A DNA stretch of 64,000 nucleotides from Verrucomicrobiaceae bacterium (GTDB lineage Bacteria; Verrucomicrobiota; Verrucomicrobiia; Chthoniobacterales; JAATET01), in NCBI GenBank assembly GCA_027488755.1, contig JAIYAZ010000075.1, positions 128,492 to 192,491 on the forward strand, read 5' to 3'. Positions 10,959-26,811 of the stretch are shown here, in pieces (the first letter of the stretch is position 1; each line of letters opens with the position of its first letter). The notes beneath the pieces are model-generated. The model worked only from the letters and a program-made list of their open reading frames with translations, made no database searches and was not told the DNA's origin. The position numbers and the translations under genes were made by a program.

Positions 10959-13496
10959 ATGGCCAAACCCGCAAACACCACCGTCAGCGAAGCCCTCGGC
11001 GTGCTTCTGCTGGCCGCGGGCATCCTCCTCCTGCTCGCCCTCGTCTCCTACGACCCCGCCGACGTTCCCTCCTGGGTCTTCTTCAGCCACGTCGCCCCGC
11101 CGAACGAGCATATCTCGAACTTCATCGGCATCGTCGGCGTCCTCCTCGGCGGCCTGCTCTACTTCCTCATCGGCGCCGCCGCCTACCTCCTCGCCGTCGT
11201 CCTCCTCGGCTTCGGCGCCGGCAAAATGTTCTTCCCGAAGGTCCGCTTCGCCGACCGCATCGTCTGGGTCGTCCTCCTCCTCCTCACCGCCGCCAGCCTG
11301 CTCGCGCTCCAGCCCTGGTTCCTCCTCGGCTGGAAGGAAGCCTTCCACGTCGAGGGCCCCGGTGGCTGGTTCGGCAAATGGATCGGCGTGAAAGCCTTCG
11401 AAAACGCCCTCGGCGCCGTCGGCTCCGCCATCGTCCTCTCCGGCCTCTACCTCGCCAGCCTCATCCTCGTCACCGGCTTCCACCCCATCCGCTTCGTCAA
11501 GCAATGCGCTGCCGCGCTCACCGCCTGGCTCGCTGCCCGCCGCGAACGCCGCCGCGCCCGGCTCGACGAACAAACCCTCTTCGCCGAAAACCAGCGCGAA
11601 ATCGAAAAAGGCGCCCGCAAGCTCGAGCGCAAAATCCGCCGCCGCGCCGAGCCCGAATCCCCCGCGGACCCCGCGCCCGCCGCCCCCGCGAACGAACCCG
11701 ACCCCGCCCTCCCCGCGCCCCGCATCATCGACGCCTCCGTCCCCCCGCCCCCGCGCAAACCCACCCTCGAGGAAGTCACCGGCCGCAAAAAAAAGGTCGA
11801 CGCCCCCGCCCTCGCCCCCGGCCTCAAGGGCGTCCACCTCGAGCACTACGAACTCCCCTCGCTCGACCTCATCGACGCCCCCGCCGCCGGCGACCACGTC
11901 GCCACCGATCCCGCCGAGCTCAAGGCCACACAGGACGTCATCCTCGACACCCTCGCGCAGTTCGGCATCCAGGCCAGCCCCGGCGACATCACCAAAGGCC
12001 CCACCATCACCCGCTACGAGCTCTACCCCGCCAAGGGCGTCCGCGTTGACCGCATCTCCGCCCTCGAACGCGACATCGCCCGCGCCACCCGCGCCGAACG
12101 CATCAACATCCTCGCCCCCATCCCCGGCAAGGACACCGTCGGCATCGAGATCGCCAACGCCAAAAAGGTCAAAGTCACCCTCCGCGAACTCTTCGAAAGC
12201 GACGCCTGGGTCAACGCCAAGGCCCGCCTCCCCCTCGCCCTCGGCAAGGACGTCTACGGCAACGCCATCATCGCCGACCTCGCGCAGATGCCCCACTGCC
12301 TCGTCGCCGGCACCACGGGCTCCGGCAAAAGCGTCTGCATCAACGCCGTCATCGCCAGCCTCCTCTTCCGGTTCACCCCCGCCGAGCTGCGCTTCATCAT
12401 GATCGACCCCAAGGTCGTCGAGATGCAGATGTATAACACCCTGCCGCATCTCGTGACACCCGTCGTCACCGACCCCAAAAAGGTCCTCCTCGCCCTCCGC
12501 TGGGTCGTGGACGAGATGGAAAACCGCTACCGCATCATCGCCAAGGTCGGCGTCCGCAACATCGCCGCCTTCAACTCCCGCCCCAAACCCAAGACCCAGG
12601 CCGAGCTCGACGCCGAAGCCGCGTCCGACCTGGAGGGCACCGCCCCCCCTGCGCCGACTTCCGCTTCCGTCCCCGCGCCGCCCGCCTCCGAGCCCGAGGG
12701 CCCCGTCGAGATCGACACGAGCGCCCCCTCCGCGCCCCACCCCGACGCCCCCGAAATGGACGTCGTCGAGGCCGTCAACGAACCCGAGCCCCCGAAAATG
12801 CGCGTCCCCCGCGACGCCGACGAACTCATCATCCCCGAGCACATGCCCTACATCGTGGTCATCATCGACGAGCTCGCCGACCTCATGCAGACCGCCCCCG
12901 CCGAGGTCGAGGAAGCCGTCGCCCGCATCGCGCAGAAGGCCCGCGCCGCCGGCATCCACCTCATCGTCGCCACCCAGACCCCCCGCGCCGACGTCGTCAC
13001 CGGCATCATCAAGGCCAACATCCCCAGCCGCATCGCCTTCCAGGTCGCCAGCAAACTCGACAGCCGCATCATCCTCGACGAATCCGGCGCCGAGAAACTC
13101 CTCGGCCAGGGCGACATGCTCTATCTCCCCCCCGGCACCTCGAAGCTCGTCCGCTCCCAGGGCGTCCTCGTCACGGACGACGAAATCCGCCGCGTCGTCG
13201 AAGCCGTCTCCGCCAACGCCGAGCCCCAGTTCGAACCCACCATCCACGCCAAACTCTCCAGCACCGCCGACCCCGAGGAGGAAATCAGCGACGAAGACGA
13301 AGAACTGGTTGAAAAGTGCCTCGAAATCATTAAGCAGGAGGGCAAGGCATCGACCTCGATGCTCCAGCGCCGGTTGCGGTTGGGATACACGCGCGCGGCC
13401 CGGGTGGTGGACATCCTCGAGCAGCGCGGCATTCTCGGCCCCAAGGACGGCGCGAAAGACCGCGAAATCCTCGTCGACCTCGATTCCTTGCCATGA
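10959..13496 (+). CDS. ftsK: FtsK/SpoIIIE DNA translocase
   Basis: 845 aa. Pumps chromosomal DNA through the closing septum. Four or five hydrophobic spans occupy residues 10-190, then a basic, Pro-rich linker (about 190-300) and the motor: Walker A AGTTGSGKS at about 449-457, Walker B YIVVIIDELADLM at about 630-642, arginine-rich RecA fold, and at the C-terminus the winged-helix gamma domain (SMLQRRLRLGYTRAARVVDILE) that reads orienting sequences. Between Walker A and B, after NIAAFNSRPKPK (about 540-627), lies a Pro/Ala/Glu-rich insert that other FtsK proteins I know lack; the usual segment is much shorter. The stop overlaps the next gene as ATGA. Sure of the family. Confidence 0.95.
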   Translation: MAKPANTTVSEALGVLLLAAGILLLLALVSYDPADVPSWVFFSHVAPPNEHISNFIGIVGVLLGGLLYFLIGAAAYLLAVVLLGFGAGKMFFPKVRFADRIVWVVLLLLTAASLLALQPWFLLGWKEAFHVEGPGGWFGKWIGVKAFENALGAVGSAIVLSGLYLASLILVTGFHPIRFVKQCAAALTAWLAARRERRRARLDEQTLFAENQREIEKGARKLERKIRRRAEPESPADPAPAAPANEPDPALPAPRIIDASVPPPPRKPTLEEVTGRKKKVDAPALAPGLKGVHLEHYELPSLDLIDAPAAGDHVATDPAELKATQDVILDTLAQFGIQASPGDITKGPTITRYELYPAKGVRVDRISALERDIARATRAERINILAPIPGKDTVGIEIANAKKVKVTLRELFESDAWVNAKARLPLALGKDVYGNAIIADLAQMPHCLVAGTTGSGKSVCINAVIASLLFRFTPAELRFIMIDPKVVEMQMYNTLPHLVTPVVTDPKKVLLALRWVVDEMENRYRIIAKVGVRNIAAFNSRPKPKTQAELDAEAASDLEGTAPPAPTSASVPAPPASEPEGPVEIDTSAPSAPHPDAPEMDVVEAVNEPEPPKMRVPRDADELIIPEHMPYIVVIIDELADLMQTAPAEVEEAVARIAQKARAAGIHLIVATQTPRADVVTGIIKANIPSRIAFQVASKLDSRIILDESGAEKLLGQGDMLYLPPGTSKLVRSQGVLVTDDEIRRVVEAVSANAEPQFEPTIHAKLSSTADPEEEISDEDEELVEKCLEIIKQEGKASTSMLQRRLRLGYTRAARVVDILEQRGILGPKDGAKDREILVDLDSLP

Positions 13497-14209
13497 AAAC
13501 CGCCGCCACCCAGGGACAGCTCATGCTCTCCATTGGGGCCCTGCTCGCCGCCGAACGCGAGCGCCGCGGCATCCCCGTCGAAAAGGCCGCCAAGGAGACC
13601 CGCATGCGCCCCCAGCGCATCCGCGACATGGAGGGCGACGACCTCTCCCACTTCACGAACCCGAGCTACGCGCGCATGTTCATCATCGCCTACGCCAAGT
13701 ATCTCGACATCCCCATGCAGACCATCCGCGATCACCTCCCCGATCGCGGCGAGCCCGGCTCCGACGGCTACCAATACATCAGCAACACCCCGGCCGAGCT
13801 CCCCTCCGTCCGCCGCGACCTCGTCTCCCGCCCCCTCCACCGCAACATCTGGCTCCCCCTCGTCGGCGTCGTCCTCCTCGCCCTCCTCGTCGCCATCGGC
13901 TTCACCGTCAATTACCTCGTCATCAACGCCCAGCGCATCACCGCCGGCCTCGACAAACCCCCGCCGCCCCCCGAGATTGTCCTCGTCAAGCCCGACCCCA
14001 CCCCCGTCCCCGCGCAGATCGAAAACCTCGCGCCCACCGCCGCGCCCGCCATCTTCGACGCCGCCGCCAGCCTCGTGGAACCCAGCGGCCAGGCCCCCGC
14101 GAACCCGACGTCCACCGTCGCCAGCGGCCCCGCCCCCAGCCCCACCGACGAAGACCGCGCCTTCCTCCTCGGCACCCCCGCCGAACCGAAGCCCCCCGCC
14201 GTCCAGTAA
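13493..14209 (+). CDS. RodZ-like HTH membrane protein
   Basis: 238 aa. Residues about 12-80 form a RodZ/HTH_25-type helix-turn-helix (LLAAERERRGIPVEKAA, TRMRPQRIRDME), a region that in RodZ binds MreB. A single membrane span follows (about 122-146, WLPLVGVVLLALLVAIGF), then a Pro-rich periplasmic tail that is not a recognisable RodZ beta domain (DUF4115). Cell-shape work is therefore likely but not certain. It starts inside the ftsK stop codon (ATGA) and so is translated with ftsK. The TAA at 14207-14209 is directly followed, in the same frame, by a 21-bp tandem repeat array. Confidence 0.7.
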   Translation: MKTAATQGQLMLSIGALLAAERERRGIPVEKAAKETRMRPQRIRDMEGDDLSHFTNPSYARMFIIAYAKYLDIPMQTIRDHLPDRGEPGSDGYQYISNTPAELPSVRRDLVSRPLHRNIWLPLVGVVLLALLVAIGFTVNYLVINAQRITAGLDKPPPPPEIVLVKPDPTPVPAQIENLAPTAAPAIFDAAASLVEPSGQAPANPTSTVASGPAPSPTDEDRAFLLGTPAEPKPPAVQ

Positions 14210-14461
14210 GCCCCGCGCACCCGCGCAAAGGCGTCTCGCACCCGCGCAAAGCCGTCTCGCGCCCGCGCGAAGGCCCCGCGCATCGGTGCAAACCCTCCTC
14301 GCCCGCGCGCAAAACGATCGCGCAGCCTTGCAAAGGTCGCTCTCAGCACTGCAAAGCCCCCGCGCATCCGTGCAAAGGCATCTCGCATCTCGGCAAAGCC
14401 TCCGCGCAGGCGTGCAAAGCGCCCTTACACCTCTGCAAAGGCCCCTTACGCGTCTGCAAAG
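14210..14461. repeat. Twelve 21-bp degenerate tandem repeats with conserved GCAAAG end
   Basis: Twelve units of exactly 21 bp run from 14210 to 14461 without a single length change; a worn thirteenth may follow to 14482. Nine units end in GCAAAG and the others differ by one base (GCGAAG, GCAAAC, GCAAAA). Most also hold CGCA or CGCG about 12 bases earlier. In the frame of the preceding gene the array would read as heptads of the type A-P-R-T-R-A-K, twelve times, directly after its stop. On the other strand it also reads as heptads (F-A-R-V-R-D-A). 21 bp is two turns of B-DNA, so the motifs would face the same side. Confidence 0.9.
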
Positions 14462-14506
14462 CCCGGTTCCGCAGGCATTTACGCCAATCGGAGCGCCGGG
14501 GGCGGC

Positions 14507-15454
14507 CTACTTCTTGCGCACCACGGTCACCTTGTCGATGGCCATCCCGCCGAAGCCCCGCGCGCGCACCTCGACGACAGTCGTCCCCACGTTCACCCGC
14601 ACCATGGCCGTCCAAGCCGCCGGTTTGCCCGAGGTCGGCCGGGCCGGCAGCTTGCCGGCCTGATACTCCACAAACGTCGAGTTCGTCGTCGTGCCCGAGA
14701 GCGGCACCAGCGCCTTGCTCGTCGTGATCCGCGTCGGCCCCTTGATCTGCACCGTCGGCTTGCCGATCCCGCCGGGCGGCGGCGTGACCCCCGGCGTCGG
14801 CGTGGGCGTCGCGTCCGGCGTGACGTTGCCAAACAGGCCCACCATGAGCCGCCGCCCCGTGTCCGAGCCGGGCGCGGAAGGCCAGGCATCCCCGTTGCTG
14901 TTGACCTCCGAGGAGGTGAAGGCGTAACCCGCCAACCCGCTGAACGTCAGGGCCTCGCCGCGATTGATGACATTCGTGTTGGAAAACGGGAGAAAACTGC
15001 CCGCCGAGCCCGTGTTGCTGATGGCGATCCAATAAGTCGCGTTCGCCGTGAGCGCCGCGCCGGAGGGCGTCGTGTTCGTCGGCGTGTAGGTTCCAAGGCC
15101 GTCCGCCGCGCTCGCGTAGGCAAATTCCCCGCGCAGGGTGCCCGGGCGGCCATCCGCGCCATCCGCGGAGTAAATCCGTGCCTTCATCACCTCGGGACCG
15201 GGGCCCCCGCTGCCGATGGGCACCACGACCGAGGTCACCGTCGCATTCGCGCTGCCCGCCGCAAACGGCCAGGCCGGGCTGGACCCCGTGCCGATATACG
15301 AAGTAATCGGCGCCGCGTTATCCGCGAGGTCACTCAGGATCACCTCCGCCTGCCCGCGCGGCGCGCCGGCCGCCAGCACGCCCGCCGCCAGCAGCAGCGC
15401 GAGCGGCGCGCGGGTTCGACGGGGACGGGGGAAGGGGGATTTCACGGTTTGCAT
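14507..15454 (-). CDS. Secreted protein with Pro/Thr linker and C-terminal beta module
   Basis: 315 aa. A signal peptide (basic start, then ALLLAAGVLAAGAPRGQAE) is followed by a beta-rich domain (about 38-230) that looks like the extracellular choice-of-anchor type found in many environmental bacteria: VILSDLADNAAPI..., then repeated statements on aperture and appearance, with TYWIAISNTGS. A short linker TPTPTPGVTPPPGG leads to a terminal module of about 85 residues ending KVTVVRKK, built like those of the Tat phosphatase and of the protein at 61036-62691. No PEP-CTERM tag. Function unknown. It lies 76 bp downstream of the nitrilase gene on the same strand and converges with the RodZ-like gene. 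Confidence 0.75.
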   Translation of the reverse strand: MQTVKSPFPRPRRTRAPLALLLAAGVLAAGAPRGQAEVILSDLADNAAPITSYIGTGSSPAWPFAAGSANATVTSVVVPIGSGGPGPEVMKARIYSADGADGRPGTLRGEFAYASAADGLGTYTPTNTTPSGAALTANATYWIAISNTGSAGSFLPFSNTNVINRGEALTFSGLAGYAFTSSEVNSNGDAWPSAPGSDTGRRLMVGLFGNVTPDATPTPTPGVTPPPGGIGKPTVQIKGPTRITTSKALVPLSGTTTNSTFVEYQAGKLPARPTSGKPAAWTAMVRVNVGTTVVEVRARGFGGMAIDKVTVVRKK

Positions 15455-15530
15455 GCCGAACTGTCACCCGCCGCAGCGTCGGAGTCAAAAACCGATTCCG
15501 GCGGCGCCCACCCGGATGCGGCGGGTCGCC

Positions 15531-17429
15531 TTAGCGGGCCTGGCGGAACGGCGCCCAGACGGAGAGATCAAACCCCGGCGAGGACTGCCACGTTTGAAAC
15601 GCCGCGGAGTCCACGGGAAACGTGAGCGGAGCGAGGAGATCGACGCGGCGACCGGTGATGAGCGCCTGCTGGCTCATCCACCAATCGGGCTCGGCCAGCG
15701 TGGTGAAGCGCACAAACAGGGCCTCCTCCCGGTCCGAGGAGGCGGTCACGGGCGGATTTTTGGCGTCCACGGGATTCAGCGTGAAGAGCCCGCTCCCGCC
15801 CAGGAAGCCGTTGCCGACGGCGTTGGCGACGACCGTGTAGGCCTGCGCGGTTTTGGCAATGGCATACCACAGCGACATCGTGTTGGCCGGGTAGCGTTCC
15901 GCAAAGAGGTCGGGCGAAATCTGGAGCCGGCCGCCGTATTGTCCGCTCCACGCGGTGGGCAGCGCGATGATGTCCGCGCGGCGGACGCTCAGCATGCCCG
16001 AGGCCTCGGGGAAGCGCGCGTCGCCGCCGAGCAGCAGGCCGATGCGCCCGATCGCGGTGTCGTAGACCGGGAAGGTGTCGCCGGCCGTCGCCCAGGATTT
16101 CTCGGCTCCCTCGAGGTGCGTTTTGCGGTAGGTGCCGAGGAGTTTTCCGTCCGGGCCAATGAGCACGGCGGTCGGGTAAAGCGATGCGCCGGACTTCTCG
16201 ACGATGCTCCCCACGACGTGGGCCGCCATTTGGTTCGCGAGCGTGGAAAAAATCTGGACGGAAGGCCCGTCGATCGGCTCGGCAAATTTCGCGGCGGCGG
16301 CGGCATCCGCCGGCGGGCCGGTGAGGGAGTATTCGGGCAGGACGATCAACCGCCCGGCCCCTTCGGCCCACGCGGGCGTGCCGAGCAGGCGGTTGATTTT
16401 GGCGACGTTGGCTTCGCGGTCGCCGGCGACGGGCGTGAACTGGACGGCGGCGGCGGCGACCGCGTGGCGCGTGGTCGAGGCCTTCGGATCGAAGGGCGCG
16501 CGGTAAAAGGCGAGGTCGCCGTAGATCGCGGGGCGGCGTTCGGCGAACGAGTCACGGGCGGGGTTGCGGAACTCCGCGGGATCGATCTCCGCGGTGAGGA
16601 TCCGCGGCGGGGCGGCGGGCGAGACGTCCGGTTTCGTCGCCGGGGCCTGGGCCAGCTTTTTGCCGGTGGGCGACCAGATCGAGGCGATGCCACCGTAGTA
16701 GACCGTGAGCCCGGTGGTCGGGTTGCTCTCGCTGTTGTTGCGGTCGGTCGCGATGAGGGCGACGCCGTTCCAGGCGTTGATTTCCTGCACGGCGGAGATG
16801 GTCGAGTGGTTCGCCCAGGAGCCCGGCTCGCGGGGCAGCGCCCGGTCGGAACTCGACATGAAGCAAATGATCTGGGCGCCCTTCACCGCGGCCGTCCGCG
16901 CGATTTCCCAATACGTGTCGTCGTAGCAAATCTCCATCGCCAGCTTTCCGTATTTCGTGTCGAACACGGGATACCCGAGGTTCCCGGGCGTGAACCAAAG
17001 CTGGTCGTCCGGGTTGAGCCCGACCTTGCGGTATTTGCCCACATACCCCTCGGGGCCGATGAGGGCGCCCGTGTTGTAGGCCAGGCCGGTCGCGCGATCG
17101 ATCTCGGCGATGCCAATCGTGACGTAGCACCCGTATTTTTTGGTGAGCGCCGCGATGGCGTCGGTCGTTTTCCCGGGAACGGAATCGAGGAACGGATCGA
17201 ACTGCCGCCGATCCTTGTAGATGTATCCCGACGTCGCCGTCTCGGGCAGGACGATGATTTTCGCGCCGCCCTGCGCCGCCTCCTCGATGATCGCGCAAAT
17301 CCTCGGAATGTTCCGCTCGAACTCGAAAAACTGCGGGTTGAACTCCACGGCGGCCACTTTGAACGGCGCGGCTTCCACCGGACCGGAAAGGGCGAGAAGG
17401 ACGGCAAGAACCGGCAGGATTGTTCTCAT
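15531..17429 (-). CDS. Exported double carbon-nitrogen hydrolase; second domain lacks the catalytic Cys
   Basis: 632 aa with a signal peptide (residues 1-20, ending VEA-APF). Two nitrilase-superfamily domains follow. The first (about 23-300) has the full Glu-Lys-Cys triad: E63 in LPETATSG, K135 in GKYRKVGL and C168 in MEICYDD. The second (about 322-610) keeps E366 (LPEYSLTG) and K436 (TYRKTHLEG), but where Cys is expected it has Gly (LLLGGDARFPE, G468), so it cannot form the thioester. Nitrilases hydrolyse amides or nitriles. A dead second copy probably supports folding or binding. The gene diverges from the giant beta-repeat gene and sits upstream of the secreted protein at 14507. Confidence 0.85.
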   Translation of the reverse strand: MRTILPVLAVLLALSGPVEAAPFKVAAVEFNPQFFEFERNIPRICAIIEEAAQGGAKIIVLPETATSGYIYKDRRQFDPFLDSVPGKTTDAIAALTKKYGCYVTIGIAEIDRATGLAYNTGALIGPEGYVGKYRKVGLNPDDQLWFTPGNLGYPVFDTKYGKLAMEICYDDTYWEIARTAAVKGAQIICFMSSSDRALPREPGSWANHSTISAVQEINAWNGVALIATDRNNSESNPTTGLTVYYGGIASIWSPTGKKLAQAPATKPDVSPAAPPRILTAEIDPAEFRNPARDSFAERRPAIYGDLAFYRAPFDPKASTTRHAVAAAAVQFTPVAGDREANVAKINRLLGTPAWAEGAGRLIVLPEYSLTGPPADAAAAAKFAEPIDGPSVQIFSTLANQMAAHVVGSIVEKSGASLYPTAVLIGPDGKLLGTYRKTHLEGAEKSWATAGDTFPVYDTAIGRIGLLLGGDARFPEASGMLSVRRADIIALPTAWSGQYGGRLQISPDLFAERYPANTMSLWYAIAKTAQAYTVVANAVGNGFLGGSGLFTLNPVDAKNPPVTASSDREEALFVRFTTLAEPDWWMSQQALITGRRVDLLAPLTFPVDSAAFQTWQSSPGFDLSVWAPFRQAR

Positions 17430-17437
17430 CTCTTGGA

Positions 17438-17454
17438 AGACGTTGCTTACGTCT
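17438..17454. promoter_or_regulatory. Palindrome AGACGT-N5-ACGTCT before the nitrilase gene
   Basis: A perfect 6-bp inverted repeat with a 5-bp spacer lies 9 bp upstream of the nitrilase start codon, in the 147-bp region between two divergent genes. It could be an operator for a dimeric repressor or a small RNA hairpin in the leader. No regulator can be named. Confidence 0.3.
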
Positions 17455-17576
17455 CGGCGCCACCACCGTCGAGGGCGAAATCGCGGCCCGCGCCCGCCGG
17501 GCCACCGCCCCGCCCCCGGGGCCGGCGACCGATTCTGAGGTGGAAAAGTCCCGGAGCGAGGCTAGCTTTCCCCCGC

Positions 17577-20500
17577 ATGCCTGCCAATTTTCCACCCTCG
17601 CCGCGCCAGCGCCTTCGGTCCTTCGGGCGATTCGCGCGGGTTTTTCTGGGCCTGGCCGCCCTGCTGGCTTCGGCCCGGGCGGATTCGATTGCCACGGCTC
17701 TGAATTCCGGGCAACTGCAGATCTGGCTCGGGACCTCGGAGGGCAATTCGGCCGTCGCCACGACAACCGATCAGGCCAACGACATCTTCGTCGGGGGCTC
17801 GGGAATGGGGAACACGATTTTTGGGCCTGTCACCTCGATCTCCGTGACCTTCCAGGGCTCCGGCCAGCTCTTCGCGCTGGAAAACAACCCGCTGCCGTTT
17901 TCCGCCAGCCTCACCTCGCCGATCCTCATCAACAGCACCGGCTTTGGCCTTTCCAACGAGGTGCTCGATGACACGACCACCGGCGGGAACGCGTTCGATT
18001 TCTCGGGTTTCACCGACCCCGTGGGGCGACTGACCAGCGAAGGCAACCCGGGGACCGCGCCGCTCACGATCCTTTCCTCCAAGGGCGCGAACTTCGTGCT
18101 CTCGGATGCCGCCCTCGTCACCGGAGCCTCGACCGTCGAGCTCCTCAACGTGCGCACCGCCATCCTCACCCACACGGCCGGCTTCCACGAATTCAACTCC
18201 GCCGGCTGGACCGGCAACCTCTCGCTCACCAACAACGCCGGGGCCACCCTCACGATCACCAACGCGCTCGACTACGCCAACGTCACCAACCTCGGCGCGC
18301 TCGTCTTTGACTACTCCGGCATCGCCATCACCAACGTCGGCGGCACCGGCCTCGCCGGCGCGAACCCGAACTTCGGCCCCGCCGGCGCGGGCGGCGCGGC
18401 CCTCACCTTCGCCGCCGCCGGGAACCTCACCACCGTGGCCGCAAAATCCATCACCGGCGGCCTCGGCGGGACGCCCGCCATCGAGGGTGACGGGGGCACC
18501 GGCGGCGACGGCGTGGTTTTCTCCGCGACCGGCTCGCTGGTGAACGCGGCCGGCGCCACGATCTCCGGCGGCCAGGGCGGTGCGGCTTTGGCCAACGGAC
18601 TCGGCGGCAGCGGCGGGCGCGGCGTGGTCTTCCAGGCGGCCGGCACTCTGGTCAACGCGGCCGGCGCGACGATCAACGGCGGCCTCGGCGGCGAGAACGC
18701 GATCAGCGGCGGCGGAACCGGACCCACCGGCGTCGCCGCGGCCTTCCTCGGCGGAGCCGGCAACCTCACCAACGCCGGCACGATCAACGGCGACGTCACC
18801 ATGGGCAGCTTTGCCAACGCCGTCACCCTCCTCGCCGGCGGCGTCATCAACGGCGACCTTTCCGTCGGCGGCAACGCCAGCTCCACCCTCACCCTCGGCG
18901 GCGCTGGCAACCAAAGCCTCTCCACCGCCGTCACCGGCAACCTCATCTTCAACGGCTCCCTCATCAAGCAGGGCACCGGCACCTGGACCCTCGACGACAT
19001 CCTCGGTTACTCCGGCGCGACGACGCTCGCCGCCGGCACGCTGCGCCTCTTCAGCCCCGGCGTGCTCGGGGACGGCGACCTGCGTTTCACCGGCGGCACC
19101 CTGCAATACGGAGCCGGAACCACCGCCGACCTCTCGGCCAAATTCAGCGCCGCGGCGAGCCAGCTTTATTCCGTCGACACCAACGGCAACAACGTCACCT
19201 TCGCCACCGCCCTCACCAGCTCCGGCGGCAGCCTCACCAAGCTCGGCCTCGGCACCCTCACGCTCTCCGCCGCGAACACCTACTCCGCCGGCACGACCCT
19301 CGCGGGCGGCATCCTCCAGGCCGCGAACTCCGACGCGCTCGGCACGGGCCCGGTCACCTTCGCCGGCGGCACCCTGCAATACGGCGCGGGCGTCTCGCAG
19401 GACTTCTCCGGGCAATTCAGCACCGCCGCCGGCCAGCGCTACGCCATCGACACCAACGGCAACACCGTCACCTTCGCCTCCTCGCTCACCAGCAGCGGAG
19501 CCACCCTCAACAAACTCGGCGCGGGCTCGCTCGTCCTCACCGGATTCGCCCCGCTCACCGGCAGCACCACGGTCTCCGGCGGCAACCTCCAGCTCGGCAC
19601 GGTGGTCGGCAGCTTCAACACCGTCACGCTCATCGGGTCAAACGGCACGACCGGCAGCGACACGGGCGGCCCGGGCGGCGCCGGGGTGATCGTCGCCCCG
19701 GGGGCCACGCTGAATCTGGTCAACGGCTCCATCACCGGCGGCGCCGGCGGCTTCGGCCCGAACCAGGGCGGCAACGGCGGCGTGGGCGTCAGCTTTTTCG
19801 GCGCGGCCGACTTCGTGAACCCGGCCGAGGGCACGATCCAGGGCGGAGCCGCCGTGGCGGGATTTGCCCTCGGCGGAAACGCCGTCGTCTTCAAGGCGGG
19901 CGGCTCGTTGACGAATCAAGACGGCGGCCAGATCACCGGCGGCGCCACCCCGGAAGGCTACGGCGGCACGGGCGTGGTCTTCGAGGCGGGCGGCTCCCTC
20001 ACCAACGAATCCGGCGGACAAATCACCGGCGGCTCCACCCCGGAAGGTTACGGCGGCTCCGGCGTCGTCTTCACCGGCGGCCCCGGCACCCTGGTGAACG
20101 CCGGCACCATCACCGGCGGAAACAACAACCAGCCCGGCTACAACGGCACCGGCGTGCTCTTCACCGCCACCGCCGGCAACCTCACGAACTCCGGCACGAT
20201 CAACGGCGGCGTCACCATGGCCACCGTGGCCAACGCCGTCACCCTGCTCTCCGGCGGCGTCATCAACGGCGACCTTTCCATCGGTGGCAATACCAGCTCC
20301 ACCCTCACCCTCACGGGCTCCGGCGACCAGGCCTACTCCGGCGCCGTCACCGGAGCGACCACGTTCGCGGGCTCCCTCGTCAAGCAGGGCAGCGGAAAAT
20401 GGACGCTCGATCAGGCGTTCAACTTCGGTGGCGGGACAACCCTGCAAAGCGGCATCCTCGAGGCGGCCAATGCCGCCGCGTTCGGATCGGGCGCGATCCG

Positions 20501-22328
20501 CTTCACCGGCGGCACGCTGCGTTACGCCGCGGGCCTCACGACGGACTTCTCCCCGCAATTCAGCCCCGTCGCGAGCCAGAGCTTCCTCATCGACACCAAC
20601 GGCAACGCCGTGACCTTCGGCACCGCCCTCACCAGCAGCGGCGGCTCCCTCACGAAGCTCGGGACCGGCTCGCTCACCCTCACCGGCAACAACTCGTTCG
20701 GCGGGGCCACGCTCTCCGCCGGCCAGCTCCAGATCGGCACGCCCGCCTCCCCCGGCCGCGTCACCGGCGCCGCGAGCACCGGCCCCGGCGGCACCGCGGG
20801 AACCGGTGTCGCGACCGCGGCCGGAACCACGCTGAATCTCAACGGCACCATCGCCGGCGGCCTCGGCTGGTCCTCCTCCGAGGGCACCAGCAACGGCGGC
20901 ACCGGCGTCTCGCTCGGCGGCAACGCGACCTTCGCCCCCACCGCCGGCGCGTCCCTCCTCGGCGGCGCGGGCGGCAACGGCGGCGACCTCGCCAATGGCG
21001 GCGCGGGCGGCGCGGGCGTGATCCTCGGCGGCGGCGCAACCTTCACCGGCGCCGCGAACATGACCGTTACCGGCGGCGCGGGCGGGAGTTCCGGCACCCT
21101 CGCGATCACCACGGGCGGCCAGGGCGGCGCGGGCATCCTTGTCGGCAGCGGCGCGACGTTCGTCAACGCGACCGGCGCCCAAATCTCCGGCGGCGCGGGC
21201 GGCGCCTCCGACTTCACCGGCGGCAACGGCGGCGAGGGCATCCGCTTCCTCGGCAACGCGACCTTCACGAACCCCTCCGCCGCCACGATCCAGGGCGGAG
21301 CCGCCACGGACGGCTTTGCGAACGGCGGGGCCGGCGTGGTTTTTGAGGCCGGCGGCTCGCTGACGAACCAGTCCGGCGCCCTCATCGCCGGCGGTGCCAC
21401 CCCGTTTGGCACCGGCGGCACCGGCGTCGCGTTCCTCGCCGGCGGCGCGCTCACCAACGCCGCCGGGGCCACCATCTCGGGCGGTTCCGGGGCGGGGGTC
21501 GGCGGCGGAAATGGCACCGGCGTTTCGTTCGCCGGCGGCAACGGCAGCCTCACCAACGCCGGCACGATCCAGGGCGGCGTCGCCATGGGCAACGCCCCCA
21601 ACGCCGTCACCCTCCTCGCCGGCGGCGTGATCGACGGCGACCTCAACGTCGGCCCCAACGCCGGCTCCACCCTCACCCTCGCGGGCTTCGGCAACCAGAC
21701 CTACTCCGCCGCCGTCACCGGCGCGACGACCTTCAACGGCTCACTCGTCAAGGCGGGCAACGGCACCTGGACGCTCGACCAAGCCCTCGCCCCCGGCGGC
21801 GGCACCACCATCAACGCCGGCACCCTCAGCGTGACCGGCAACCTCTCCGGCGGAACCGTCACCGTCAACGCCGGCGGCACCCTCGGCGGCACCGGCCCCG
21901 TCGGCGCGATCAGCCTCGCCGGCGGCACCCTCTCGCCCGGCGTCACCGCAGGCACGCTCACCACCGCGGGCCTCCTCTGGACGGGCGGCGGCATTCTTTT
22001 CGACCTCGGCCCCACGCCCGCCACGTCCGACCTCATCCAAACCGGGGCCCTGCAGGGCGGCGGAACCAGCTACGCGTTCACGTTTGTCGATCAGGGGTGG
22101 GTGTTTGGAGCGGCCTACGACCTCATCACCTTCAGCAGCTCCGACATCGCCCTCGGGAACTTCACGTTCACCAACGCCGGCGGCTTCGACGGCCATTTTG
22201 GCTACCAGGGGAACACCCTCCAATTCACCGTCACCGGCGTCCCCGAGCCCGGCACCTGGGCCATCCTCGTCCTCTGCGCCGCCGCGCTCCTCGCCCACCG
22301 CCTCCGCCGGCAACCCACCCGCCGCTAG
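17577..22328 (+). CDS. Giant PEP-CTERM protein with autotransporter-associated beta-strand repeats
   Basis: 1583 aa from the ATG at 17577; the frame is open far upstream but only antisense to the nitrilase gene. Signal peptide (about 1-35, RFARVFLGLAALLASARA). The body is Gly/Ala/Asn/Thr-rich passenger-type beta helix with three macro-modules, each a Gly-rich stretch, then LTNAGTINGG and a block of the form SLVKQGSGKWTLDQA, GGTLQYGAG, FSPQFS, IDTNGN-VTF. The key blocks start near 18960, 20370 and 21740, a period near 1.4 kb. The end, VPEPGTWAILVLCAAALLAH plus Arg-rich tail, is a PEP-CTERM sorting tag, cut by an exosortase (not in this window). Role: probably a surface or matrix protein. Converges with a similar gene. 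Confidence 0.9.
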   Translation: MPANFPPSPRQRLRSFGRFARVFLGLAALLASARADSIATALNSGQLQIWLGTSEGNSAVATTTDQANDIFVGGSGMGNTIFGPVTSISVTFQGSGQLFALENNPLPFSASLTSPILINSTGFGLSNEVLDDTTTGGNAFDFSGFTDPVGRLTSEGNPGTAPLTILSSKGANFVLSDAALVTGASTVELLNVRTAILTHTAGFHEFNSAGWTGNLSLTNNAGATLTITNALDYANVTNLGALVFDYSGIAITNVGGTGLAGANPNFGPAGAGGAALTFAAAGNLTTVAAKSITGGLGGTPAIEGDGGTGGDGVVFSATGSLVNAAGATISGGQGGAALANGLGGSGGRGVVFQAAGTLVNAAGATINGGLGGENAISGGGTGPTGVAAAFLGGAGNLTNAGTINGDVTMGSFANAVTLLAGGVINGDLSVGGNASSTLTLGGAGNQSLSTAVTGNLIFNGSLIKQGTGTWTLDDILGYSGATTLAAGTLRLFSPGVLGDGDLRFTGGTLQYGAGTTADLSAKFSAAASQLYSVDTNGNNVTFATALTSSGGSLTKLGLGTLTLSAANTYSAGTTLAGGILQAANSDALGTGPVTFAGGTLQYGAGVSQDFSGQFSTAAGQRYAIDTNGNTVTFASSLTSSGATLNKLGAGSLVLTGFAPLTGSTTVSGGNLQLGTVVGSFNTVTLIGSNGTTGSDTGGPGGAGVIVAPGATLNLVNGSITGGAGGFGPNQGGNGGVGVSFFGAADFVNPAEGTIQGGAAVAGFALGGNAVVFKAGGSLTNQDGGQITGGATPEGYGGTGVVFEAGGSLTNESGGQITGGSTPEGYGGSGVVFTGGPGTLVNAGTITGGNNNQPGYNGTGVLFTATAGNLTNSGTINGGVTMATVANAVTLLSGGVINGDLSIGGNTSSTLTLTGSGDQAYSGAVTGATTFAGSLVKQGSGKWTLDQAFNFGGGTTLQSGILEAANAAAFGSGAIRFTGGTLRYAAGLTTDFSPQFSPVASQSFLIDTNGNAVTFGTALTSSGGSLTKLGTGSLTLTGNNSFGGATLSAGQLQIGTPASPGRVTGAASTGPGGTAGTGVATAAGTTLNLNGTIAGGLGWSSSEGTSNGGTGVSLGGNATFAPTAGASLLGGAGGNGGDLANGGAGGAGVILGGGATFTGAANMTVTGGAGGSSGTLAITTGGQGGAGILVGSGATFVNATGAQISGGAGGASDFTGGNGGEGIRFLGNATFTNPSAATIQGGAATDGFANGGAGVVFEAGGSLTNQSGALIAGGATPFGTGGTGVAFLAGGALTNAAGATISGGSGAGVGGGNGTGVSFAGGNGSLTNAGTIQGGVAMGNAPNAVTLLAGGVIDGDLNVGPNAGSTLTLAGFGNQTYSAAVTGATTFNGSLVKAGNGTWTLDQALAPGGGTTINAGTLSVTGNLSGGTVTVNAGGTLGGTGPVGAISLAGGTLSPGVTAGTLTTAGLLWTGGGILFDLGPTPATSDLIQTGALQGGGTSYAFTFVDQGWVFGAAYDLITFSSSDIALGNFTFTNAGGFDGHFGYQGNTLQFTVTGVPEPGTWAILVLCAAALLAHRLRRQPTRR

Positions 22329-22335
22329 ACCCCCA

Positions 22336-22363
22336 TCCGTGGGCATCCGTGCCCATCCGTGGC
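22336..22363. repeat. CCGTG-type dispersed repeat, single arm
   Basis: ATCCGTGGGCATCCGTGCCC and the next bases form three near copies of a 9-10-bp unit (ATCCGTGxxC) between the stops of the two converging giant genes. It belongs to the same sequence family as the hairpins at 26822-26889 and 59360-59428. Confidence 0.6.
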
Positions 22364-22401
22364 TCTCCCCTCAGCCGCCCCCTCAAATCCCTCCGCTCGG
22401 G

Positions 22402-25218
22402 TCAAACCCCGGAACGCCGCCGCCGCCGCTTGGCGAATACCCCCAGCACGCAGGCCGCAAGGACGAGCAGCACCGCGATCCGCGGCTCGGGAATGATGAC
22501 GAATTGCAGGGTGTTCCCGACATAAGAAAACTCGCCCTCAAAACCGTCGGCATTGGTGAATCCGAAATTTCCAATCGGGATGTTCGTGCTGCCAAAACCG
22601 ACGAGGGTATAGGTCTGCCGGAGCACCCAGCCGTTGTTCACGAAGGTAAATCGGAGCGGCGCGGCTCCGCCGGTCAACGAGCCGGCCATCAAAACCATGT
22701 CGGACGCGGCGGCGTTCGCGCCGAGTTCGAACACCAGCGTCCCGGAATTCCACGCCAGGCTGCCCGCGTTGAGTTGACCAGGCCCGGCGCCGGGGCCGGG
22801 GGCGAGCTGGCCGCCGGCGAGGGAAATCGCGCCCACCGTTCCGTTGCCCCCGAGGGTTCCGCCGGCGTTGACGGTCACGTTGCCGAGGGTTCCCTGCGCG
22901 ATCAGGCTGCCGCCGGCGATGGTCGTTCCGCCCGAGAAGGTCTGGTTGCTGCTGAGCGTAAGGCTGCCCGTGCCCTGCTTGGTGAGCGAGCCGTTGCCGG
23001 TGAGCGTGAGGGCCGTGGTGACGGCGAAGGACTGCGTGTTAATGGTTCCACCGCCGGGGCCGGTGAGCGTGACGTCGCCGGCTTCAAAGCCGGAGAAGAG
23101 GGCGGTTTGGTTGCCGGTGAGGCGAAGGGTGCCGCCGCTGAAGGTGACCGTGCCGTTGCCGTCGCCTTCGGAGAGCTGGCCGGTGGTGAGAACGCCGCCG
23201 CGGAGGCTGAGGGTGCTTCCGGAGGTGGCATTCTCGGCGAGGAGAACCGTGCCCGACGAGAGGGTGCCGTTGGAAAGCGTGAATGTCCCGTTACCGAATC
23301 CCCCGATGAAGAGGGGTCCCGAGTTTGTCCAATCCCCTCCGCTCATGTTGACGGTGCCCCTCGTGAAAAAGGAGGACCCGAGGGTGCTCGAGGCGCTCGA
23401 GAGGGTGCCATTCGAAAGATTCAAGGTGCCGACATTGAGGCCGCCGATGCGAAAGTCTCCGGAGATGAGCAATGCCCCGCCGGTCATGTTGATAACTCCT
23501 TCGAAGTCGATGCGGGAGAGAGTGATGCTCGAGGCGGAGACGGTGCCGCCGGAGAGGTTCAGGGTGGCGTCGCCTTTCTGGCCGATCGTCATTGACCCGG
23601 TGCTGAGGCTGCCGCCACTCACATTGATCGTGGCCGAGGAGCCGTATCCTTCTCCAACGCTTATGAGGGAGCTGGAGACGGTGCCGCCGGAAACCTTCAA
23701 GGTGGAGTTGGAAAAGTTGTCCAAGCTCATGCGGAGCTCGCCGGCGGAGTTGTTGATGGAACCGCCGGTGGGGACTTCGATGGTGCCCGAAAGGATGGTG
23801 GTGTTTCCGGTGTAGGAGTTGTTACCGGAGAGGGTGAGGGTTCCCGTGCCGGTCTTGGAGAGGGAGCCGTTGCCGGTGAGGGGGTGGGCCGTGGCTACTA
23901 AGAAGGACTGGGTGTCCAGGGTGCCGCCCGAGGCGGTGAGGGTAACTTCGCCGGGCTCGAAGCCGGAGAAAAGGGCGGATTGGTTGGCGGAGAGGCGGAG
24001 GGTGCCGCCATTGAAGGTGACGGTGCTGTTTCCAGAGCCCTCGGAGATTTGGGAGGCGGTGAGGGTGCCGCCAAGCAGGTTCAGGGCGGCGGTGCTGTTC
24101 GCCCCGGCGGCAAGGGCGACGCTGCCGGTATTGGCCCAGTTTCCACCGCTGATCGTGAGGTTTCCGCGCGAGACGCCGCCAACGCCGATCAAGATACCGG
24201 CACTCGAGATCGAGCCGCTGCTGAGGGTCATGCTGCCGTTTCCGCCGAAGCCCACGGTGATGTCTCCCGAGCTGTTCCAGGTCCCGCCGCTGACGGTCAC
24301 GTTGCCATTCGAGCCGGCCCGGATGGCAATGTTGGTGAAGTCCGTCGAGATCGTTCCCCCGGTGTGACTGACAGTCGCGTTGCCGGAATCCCCGACGGTG
24401 AAGGTGTCGGAGTTGGTCCAACTCCCGGCGGTCACGCTGAGGCTGCCGGTGGAGCCGGCGGCGGACCCAAGGATGGTTTCGAAGGCGGAGAGGGTGCCGT
24501 TGGATGTGACGGAGGCAACGTCAGCCGCGAGGCTACCGATGGTCACGGCGGAGGCCACGTGGCTGAGCGAGCCGGTGAGCCCAAGGGTGCCGGCGCGCAC
24601 GGTGGTGCCGCCCGCGTAGGAGTTGCTGCCGGCGAGGGTGAGCGTGCCATTCCCATGCTTGGTCAACGAGCCGGAGCCGGTGAGCCCAAGGCTCGTCGCG
24701 ACGGAAAAAGACTGGGTGTCAATCGACCCGCCGGAGCCTGCCAGCGTCACGTCGCCGGACTCGAACCCGGAGAAGAGGGTGGTTTGGTTGGCGGAGAGGC
24801 GGAGGGTGCCGCCGTTGAAGGTGACGGTGCCGTTGCCGGCGCCCTCGGCGAGTTGGGGGGCGGTCATGGTGCCGCCGGTGAGGTTGATGCGGCCGGTGGA
24901 GCCGGAGTTGTTACCGACGGTGACGTTGCCGGAGCTGGTCCAATTGCCGCCGGTGAGGGCGACGGTGCCGTTGCCGCCGGAGGTGTTGCCGATGAGGGCG
25001 CTGGTGTTTGAGACCGTGCCGTTCGCAGCAATGGTCAGGTTGCCGGAACTGGAGCTGCCGACCGTGAGGCTGCCGTTGATGGTCCAGGTCGGGCTTGTGG
25101 GGGAGCCGGGAAGAACGTTGCCGGAAACGGAAACCTGGGCCGAGGCATCAAGAAGCGAAAACCCGGAAAAAAAGAGCCGGAAGATCCATTTGCCGGAGGG
25201 GTATGCCACGCGATTCAC
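22402..25218 (-). CDS. Large PEP-CTERM protein with autotransporter-associated beta-strand repeats
   Basis: 938 aa from the GTG at 25218 (there is also a GTG three codons later). Signal peptide IFRLFFSGFSLLDASAQ. The body is repetitive, Ser/Thr/Gly/Asn-rich; the block TVTFNGGTLRLSANQT-LFSGFE, SGGSIDTQSF, GSLTKHGNGTLTLAGSNSY occurs three times (near 24600-24850, 23830-24020 and 22970-23150), with units of the type GNLTISGGNWANTGS between. The tail IIPEPRIAVLLVLAACVLGV with RRRRR is a PEP-CTERM variant. Sorted by an exosortase elsewhere in the genome; likely a surface or matrix protein. Its repeats differ from those of the converging neighbour, so the pair did not arise by a recent duplication. 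Confidence 0.88.
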   Translation of the reverse strand: MNRVAYPSGKWIFRLFFSGFSLLDASAQVSVSGNVLPGSPTSPTWTINGSLTVGSSSSGNLTIAANGTVSNTSALIGNTSGGNGTVALTGGNWTSSGNVTVGNNSGSTGRINLTGGTMTAPQLAEGAGNGTVTFNGGTLRLSANQTTLFSGFESGDVTLAGSGGSIDTQSFSVATSLGLTGSGSLTKHGNGTLTLAGSNSYAGGTTVRAGTLGLTGSLSHVASAVTIGSLAADVASVTSNGTLSAFETILGSAAGSTGSLSVTAGSWTNSDTFTVGDSGNATVSHTGGTISTDFTNIAIRAGSNGNVTVSGGTWNSSGDITVGFGGNGSMTLSSGSISSAGILIGVGGVSRGNLTISGGNWANTGSVALAAGANSTAALNLLGGTLTASQISEGSGNSTVTFNGGTLRLSANQSALFSGFEPGEVTLTASGGTLDTQSFLVATAHPLTGNGSLSKTGTGTLTLSGNNSYTGNTTILSGTIEVPTGGSINNSAGELRMSLDNFSNSTLKVSGGTVSSSLISVGEGYGSSATINVSGGSLSTGSMTIGQKGDATLNLSGGTVSASSITLSRIDFEGVINMTGGALLISGDFRIGGLNVGTLNLSNGTLSSASSTLGSSFFTRGTVNMSGGDWTNSGPLFIGGFGNGTFTLSNGTLSSGTVLLAENATSGSTLSLRGGVLTTGQLSEGDGNGTVTFSGGTLRLTGNQTALFSGFEAGDVTLTGPGGGTINTQSFAVTTALTLTGNGSLTKQGTGSLTLSSNQTFSGGTTIAGGSLIAQGTLGNVTVNAGGTLGGNGTVGAISLAGGQLAPGPGAGPGQLNAGSLAWNSGTLVFELGANAAASDMVLMAGSLTGGAAPLRFTFVNNGWVLRQTYTLVGFGSTNIPIGNFGFTNADGFEGEFSYVGNTLQFVIIPEPRIAVLLVLAACVLGVFAKRRRRRSGV

Positions 25219-25422
25219 GTCGGGGGTGGGTTTCTGGTTGAAAACTCCGCGCTATCGAACGACTCGTCGTCGGAAGGACAAGGCCCCTTAAATCAGGCTC
25301 CAAAGCAAGCGTCGAGCCCTTTCCGAGGCCCGCCGCCGACTTCGTAAAACCGGACTCACGCCGAGCGTGCATGAGACGCCCACCCACGCTAAGCTTCCGG
25401 TTGCCCTTATCCGTTCCGCCGC
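25219..25422. other. Divergent intergenic region before rimO
   Basis: 204 bp between the start of the beta-repeat gene and rimO. It must carry both promoters. I see no convincing -35/-10 pair and no repeat of the families found elsewhere in the window. Confidence 0.4.
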
Positions 25423-26811
25423 ATGCCGCCCGCCACCCCGTCCCCATCCGCCGCCACCCGCAAGGTCGGCATGATCAGCCTCGGCTGCGCCAAAAACCTC
25501 GTCGACGCCGAGGTCATGCTCGGCGACGCCGCCACCCGCGGTTACGAAATCACCCCCCACGCCGACGACGCCGACATCATCGTCGTGAACACCTGCGGCT
25601 TCATCGACACCGCCAAGCAGGAATCCATCGACGCCATCCTCGAAGCCGGCGCCAAACTCCGCGACGGCCAGAAACTCGTCGTCAGCGGCTGCCTCTCCCA
25701 GCGCTATTCGACGGAACTCCGAAATGAACTCCCCGAGGTCCACGCCTTCATCGGCCTCGATCAGGTCGCCCAGGCCGGCACGATCTTCGACACCCTTTTC
25801 AACGCCGATCAGGAGGAAAGCGCCGTCAACCTCGTCACCCGCGGCTCCCGCTACATCCCCGACTACACCACGCCGAAGTTCCAGCTCACCCCCGGCCACA
25901 CCGCCTACGTGAAGATCGCCGAGGGCTGCAACCACCCCTGCAGCTTCTGCGTGATCCCCCAAATGCGCGGTCGGCACCGCAGCCGCACGATCGACTCCGT
26001 CGTGCGCGAGGTGCGCGAACGCCTCGCCACCGGCGTCCGCGAGATCAACCTCATCTCGCAGGACACCACCTACTACGGCATGGACCTCTGGGAGCAAAAG
26101 GCCGGCCCGCGCCAGCCCGTCGACAGCTCCCGCGGCCCCACCCTCGTTTCCCTCCTCGACGAACTCGCCAACCTCGGCGACGGCGAGGAATTCTGGATCC
26201 GCCTCCTCTACACCCACCCCGCGCACTGGAGCGACGAGCTCATCGCCGCCATCGCGCGCAACCCCCGCGTCGTCCCCTACATCGACATGCCGCTCCAGCA
26301 CATCCACCAGGACCTGCTCGGCACGATGAAACGCGAGACCTCCCGCCAGCACATCGAGGACCTCATCCTCCGCCTCCGCGCCGGCATCCCGAACCTCGCC
26401 ATACGCACCACCTTCATCGTCGGCTTCCCCGGCGAAACCGAGGAACACTTCGAAAGCCTCCTCGAGTTCATCGAACGCGTCCGCTTCGAGCGCCTCGGCG
26501 TCTTCGCCTACTCCCGCGAGGAAGGCTCCCGCGCCGCGAAGATGGAGGACCAAATCCCCACCGCGACGAAAAACCGCCGCCACCGCCGCGCGATGAAGCT
26601 CCAGCAGAAAATCGCCGCCGAACTCGCCGCCGCCCAGGTCGGCCGCCCGATCCGCGTGCTCACCGAATCGCCCCGCGTCGGCCGCACGATGCACGACGCC
26701 CCCGAGGTCGACTGCAAGGTCATCCTCGAATCCGACGCCCCCGTCGGCCGCTTCATCGACGCCCGCGTCACCGGCACCCAGGTCTACGACCTCGTCGCCC
26801 GCCCGCTCTGA
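25423..26811 (+). CDS. rimO: Ribosomal protein S12 methylthiotransferase RimO
   Basis: 462 aa. Radical-SAM enzyme that puts a methylthio group on Asp of ribosomal protein S12. The N-terminal UPF0004 domain starts GMISLGCAKNLVDAEVMLG and has its three cluster Cys (LGCAKN, NTCGF, SGCLSQR); the SAM domain has C169-x3-C173-x2-C176 in EGCNHPCSFCVIPQ; a TRAM domain is at the end. The CAKN-x-VD start and CSFC-IP-x-RG are more RimO- than MiaB-like. It stands alone on the plus strand after a 204-bp gap; a 24-bp hairpin follows 10 bp after the stop and may end transcription. Confidence 0.93.
   Translation: MPPATPSPSAATRKVGMISLGCAKNLVDAEVMLGDAATRGYEITPHADDADIIVVNTCGFIDTAKQESIDAILEAGAKLRDGQKLVVSGCLSQRYSTELRNELPEVHAFIGLDQVAQAGTIFDTLFNADQEESAVNLVTRGSRYIPDYTTPKFQLTPGHTAYVKIAEGCNHPCSFCVIPQMRGRHRSRTIDSVVREVRERLATGVREINLISQDTTYYGMDLWEQKAGPRQPVDSSRGPTLVSLLDELANLGDGEEFWIRLLYTHPAHWSDELIAAIARNPRVVPYIDMPLQHIHQDLLGTMKRETSRQHIEDLILRLRAGIPNLAIRTTFIVGFPGETEEHFESLLEFIERVRFERLGVFAYSREEGSRAAKMEDQIPTATKNRRHRRAMKLQQKIAAELAAAQVGRPIRVLTESPRVGRTMHDAPEVDCKVILESDAPVGRFIDARVTGTQVYDLVARPL

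Follow-up and report, generated by a model that had tools for sequence, protein, structure and literature searches.

The window, as we call the whole 64-kb stretch of DNA analysed, carries the ftsK gene (10959-13496, plus strand) and, directly downstream of it, a RodZ-like gene with an HTH_25 domain (rodZ, 13493-14209, plus strand), whose C-terminus is conserved with congeners. The base next after the rodZ TAA is the first base of a tandem array of 12 units, each exactly 21 bp (14210-14461). This array lies in the 3'-to-3' gap between rodZ and a convergent gene, gene A (14507-15454, minus strand), and begins 46 bp beyond the gene A stop. An earlier note on this DNA had described 12 repeats right behind the rodZ-like stop and in frame with it, which is confirmed, and had placed them beside ftsK, which is not: the adjoining gene is rodZ, and ftsK lies one gene further upstream. 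Beyond gene A follow gene B, a two-copy carbon-nitrogen hydrolase (15531-17429, minus strand) that lacks an orthologue in congeners (best congener match, 34-35% identity); gene C, an autotransporter-like repeat protein with a PEP-CTERM-like end (17540-22328, plus strand; described partly by reading of the sequence, with an approximate start and an open frame listed from 15216); gene D, a passenger-associated (PATR) repeat protein (22402-25218, minus strand); and rimO (25423-26811, plus strand), the ancestral neighbour of rodZ. The C-terminal region of gene A, of ~95 residues, is common to many proteins of the congener G001 and is Ig-like, with a Big_13-type match in one paralogue. The repeat proteins of genes C and D are both large and of autotransporter type.

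The genus was compared through one genome per species, namely the source genome (G000) and three congeners (G001, G002 and G003). In all three congeners rodZ is followed directly by rimO, without the array, whereas in the source genome rimO starts only at 25423, on the same strand as rodZ. The ancestral rodZ-rimO spacer of G001 reads TAAGCCAATG, the array start TAAGCC, and the array is therefore placed at the left edge of an accessory block of about 11.2 kb (14210-25422), absent here in all three congeners, which appears from these genomes to have been inserted between the ancestral pair. The array is unique in the source genome, and a search of 57 genomes of the order returned nothing beyond chance-level pieces of 23-42 bases. 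Conservation of the array behind ftsK-rodZ, which the earlier note had wanted looked for in relatives, is not supported by any of the three congeners, and relatives with intact neighbours and no array, which the earlier note had named as speaking against its reading, are what we find.

The array matches itself at a shift of 21 in 0.654 of positions; of 2000 dinucleotide shuffles, none rose above 0.434 even at the best of 51 shifts. The array is also reported by TRF, it is the strongest period-21 stretch of the window, with no other near it at that period, and it has no 7-bp substructure (self-match 0.23 at shift 7). No indel interrupts its 12 x 21 bp. The units described as exact repeats are exact in spacing, but not in sequence, as their mean pairwise identity is 0.647 (64.7% of bases); a fixed unit length in spite of strongly varying bases is supported. 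The consensus is roughly G/C-C-N-Y-C-T/G-C-G-C-A-N-C-N-N-Y-G-C-A-A-A-G, and six columns are invariant: 5 and 9 (C), 16 (G), 17 (C), and 19 and 20 (A). The GCAAAG end claimed for the units is exact in nine of 12, and deviates by one base in the other three (GCGAAG, GCAAAC and GCAAAA).

Six invariant columns exceed the 1.4-2.3 expected when uniform decay is simulated on trees fitting the identity spread (P<=0.005), so the changes are not free of motif constraint, the other pattern that had been named as adverse; a constraint acting on the motif at the level of DNA is plausible from these column counts. A similar unevenness of columns is seen in X2, one of three period-21 arrays of sister species (X1, X2 and X3) described below. 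Neighbouring units are not more alike than distant ones, as recent duplication would make them (correlation -0.14, P=0.14), and since likeness does not fall with distance, the copies either diverged together or belong to an old array. Two further tests were chosen post hoc, with the data already seen: column information has a 10.5-bp harmonic, half a unit, in the window array (P=0.006) and in X3 (P=0.035) but not in X2 (P=0.20), and the window array ranks in the top 0.8% when its predicted curvature is compared with the genomic background, and in the top 4.5% when compared with column permutations. The predicted curvature of X1, X2 and X3 is not unusual, and curvature was rejected as a property of 21-bp arrays as a class.

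The array, which is non-coding, inserted relative to the congeners, absent from them and conserved by position, is probably best read as a lineage-specific tandem array, a bacterial minisatellite, at a gene-content junction in the gap between rodZ and gene A. It would have formed at the left edge of the block that splits rodZ from rimO, or have come in together with that edge, and would have grown by tandem duplication precise to the unit. Under this reading, we tentatively suggest that the two-turn unit has been kept because the array acts as DNA, presenting one motif on one helix face to a DNA-binding or nucleoid protein, or forming phased A-tract curvature; alternatively, the same minisatellite may simply be old and inert. 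The proposal of an array of binding sites, with one motif per two helix turns, draws on the column constraint and the 10.5-bp harmonic, and is opposed by the fact that the genome offers no second copy of the motif array for one regulator to serve. Phased sites are opposed as well by the other arrays, in which harmonic and curvature are not class features (X2 has neither, and X1 and X3 have no special curvature), and column heterogeneity could stem from uneven mutation.

Rather less probable is an inert minisatellite in the strict sense, in which one duplication event produced 12 units that have since decayed through point mutations, neither their length nor their motif being under selection. 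Such an origin fits an array that is confined to a single species, where it sits at an accessory-block edge, and that has no second copy in the genome. Neither a promoter nor a terminator signal is found at the array, and no curated RNA family (Rfam) matches it above threshold (best sub-threshold match, E 0.1), which fits as well. It accords poorly with a divergence that is star-like and yet leaves six invariant columns, with twelve heavily mutated units that contain not a single indel, and with a unit length shared by every clear non-coding array sampled in the genus, four in all.

We consider it improbable that the array works as RNA, on the minus strand within the 3' UTR of gene A, with each unit forming a hairpin (two 7-nt arms around a 4-nt loop, then a 3-nt spacer). 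Against dinucleotide shuffles the minus strand folds with a z of -4.5 and the plus strand with one of -0.1, the dyad counted with G-U pairs reaches P=0.025 against column permutations, and the dyad of the G003 array is stronger (P=0.005). Column-permuted arrays are the appropriate null when a sequence is periodic, and against them the fold of the minus strand reaches just P=0.04; moreover, exchanging bases among units within columns weakens neither pairing nor folding, and therefore there is no covariation, the check that the earlier note had proposed. The string of hairpins, suggestive at first, is not upheld by these column and row shuffles, and the compensatory changes at paired positions that mark a structured RNA were not found in the array. 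In 57 non-coding arrays elsewhere dyads are in weak excess only, and a dyad universal to 21-bp arrays was likewise rejected.

That the array encodes basic heptads, as a lost or readthrough C-terminal tail of RodZ, can be set aside almost entirely. In its favour, the frame is open and continuous with that of rodZ, and its translation (APRTRAK, ASRTRAK, PSRARAK, APRIGAN, PPRPRAK, RSRSLAK, VALSTAK, PPRIRAK, ASRISAK, PPRRRAK, RPYTSAK, APYASAK) is rich in basic residues and approximates, but only approximates, the proposed heptad x-P-R-x-R-A-K. Amino-acid identity among the units exceeds a column-shuffle null (0.494 vs 0.458, P=0.003), but a frame of the minus strand that is broken by two stops does better still (0.532 vs 0.466), and the signal is therefore attributed to linkage of neighbouring bases. 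Minority bases fall 21/17/22 over the codon positions of the RodZ frame, without a third-position excess, and this codon-bias check, also proposed at the outset, gives no coding pattern; the conserved alanine is encoded by GCA in 11 of 12 units, a codon used for five of 361 alanines in six neighbouring genes. The RodZ proteins of congeners end at the same conserved region (of the type DRAFLLG...PAVQ in G000, G001 and G002; the G003 end is somewhat longer), and RodZ has therefore lost nothing here. We found neither such a tail in RodZ homologues, nor a truncated RodZ, nor native codon usage; the array is non-coding and not a RodZ tail, and neither a lost tail nor stop-codon readthrough is supported.

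The earlier note could name no repeat class for the array. With at least three head-to-tail copies of a 10-100 bp unit, a position outside genes and no coding signature, it agrees with a minisatellite. Bacterial minisatellites and VNTR loci, as used in MLVA typing, share with it head-to-tail units of tens of bp, an intergenic position and species specificity, but their units are usually near-identical and change in copy number, whereas these units are ~65% alike and exactly spaced. Plasmid iterons and operator arrays comprise direct units of about two helical turns, a unit length and orientation that the array shares. In contrast to plasmid iterons, it has no recognised replication gene nearby, occupies a single chromosomal locus and is built of units too diverse for that class; no plasmid match was found, and a plasmid origin was rejected. 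Recurrence of the motif at like loci in relatives or elsewhere in the genome, expected of iterons or operators, was not observed. A CRISPR array was rejected, given contiguous, diverged 21-bp units and flanking genes that, as far as described, include no recognised cas gene. The TAACTGA heptamer direct repeats of Beggiatoaceae, Cyanobacteria and Bacteroidetes, of unknown function, have a 7-bp unit of one fixed sequence, and a genome contains 169 sets of them, most of which immediately precede start codons (PMC4679880). Like the array, they are intergenic direct repeats with a patchy spread over distant phyla, missing from the corresponding gap of close relatives, but the array has a 21-bp unit without 7-bp substructure and occupies one locus.

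In the source genome GCAAAG recurs at 21-bp spacing only in the array, besides single chance pairs, and the other such arrays that the earlier note had thought worth seeking were not found. Of 388 genomes from the phylum, 8 have three GCAAAG in a row at this spacing and 11 have the reversed motif so arranged; a control that is equally common or commoner led us to reject GCAAAG as a conserved or shared signal. As to the originally claimed selection on unit length and on the GCAAAG end, constraint on the motif is plausible from the six invariant columns (P<=0.005), but GCAAAG itself is not enriched in the phylum. A scan of GTDB genomes for four GCAAAG in a row at 21 bp found over 119 stretches, which are spread through many phyla and mix coding, heptamer and non-coding arrays, and 26 stretches with the motif array were found in viral contigs; arrays of 21-bp units are in general common enough that many 6-mers find some. 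Those of Pedobacter, Emticicia, Hymenobacter, Tannerellaceae, Treponema and Planctomycetaceae resemble the window array in period, many lie in non-coding gaps and some carry GCAAAG, but they were preselected by the GCAAAG search and include coding and heptamer repeats. Tannerellaceae Pc512_bin25 (L138, L144, L146) and Planctomycetaceae Roe453_bin113 (L149, L168, L176) each hold at least three separate 21-bp arrays of one unit, that is, dispersed array families, and two further GTDB contigs (L109 and L125) carry 21-bp arrays of unrelated units, TGGGATACACATAAGCGACGT and AAGGGAAGGAATGTTCTTCCC, the AAGGGAAGGAATGTTCTTCCC one upstream of a tatA-like gene.

The unusual point is that sister species also have arrays of period 21, with sequences that are unrelated. 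A scan for tandem arrays, whatever their sequence, covered 1.52 Mb from the genus (0.81 Mb being source genome), and among the clear arrays, picked by inspection, all four that are non-coding and have units of more than 12 bp have period 21, with unrelated unit sequences. Three of these belong to two of the three sister species: X1 (G001:C10:120374-120478; five units, GGAAACGCGTTGCGCCGGGTT) has an autotransporter gene on one side and, on the other, a small module of two genes resembling a toxin-antitoxin pair; X2 (G001:C10:130258-130488; eleven units) precedes a DUF433/DUF5615 pair; and X3 (G003:C87:31561-31749, equal to L257:11561-11749; nine units) stands directly behind rimO, a position occupied in the other three genomes by a methyltransferase gene, which is flanked there by rimO and hisI. 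No flank is common to all four arrays, and a 10-mer is shared by two only. X1 and X2 lie in or beside a minus-strand gene cluster (G001:C10:121031-144311) whose products carry the Ig-like C-terminal region of the gene A type, and a remnant of such a region (PFQPGRNKLTVTRKP, followed by a stop; L014:1440-1500) abuts X1 and looks like the trace of a gene truncated at that point. The nearest exceptions to period 21 in the scan are found in L067, a weaker stretch built on a 9-mer, and in G003 (C1; L263:2870-3110), a CRISPR array with a repeat of 36-37 bp, CGCTTTGCCTTGAATCCACTTTCAGGCCCGGCAAACT; a further period-21 match (L081:7004) reads as coiled-coil coding sequence. In 0.56 Mb surrounding the GTDB matches, the matches themselves excluded, period 21 is seen in just two of nine non-coding-like arrays, so the preference is clearest in this genus, on small numbers.

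We found no description of a class of 21-bp non-coding arrays in the open-access literature, the nearest being the TAACTGA heptamer repeats (PMC4679880). It is conceivable, if unlikely, that non-coding arrays with unrelated units and a 21-bp pitch, exactly two helical turns, form a distinct class of bacterial element, which would be made or kept by a dedicated process (duplication in fixed steps, or a nucleoid protein that reads helical phase) and would collect where gene content changes. At this locus the practical outcome is that the idea of a RodZ tail can be dropped. If period 21 is truly favoured in non-coding arrays of any sequence, such arrays would readily lead to false "heptad-repeat" hypothetical proteins in annotated genomes, and something would read or write DNA in steps of two helical turns, with the arrays as its mark.
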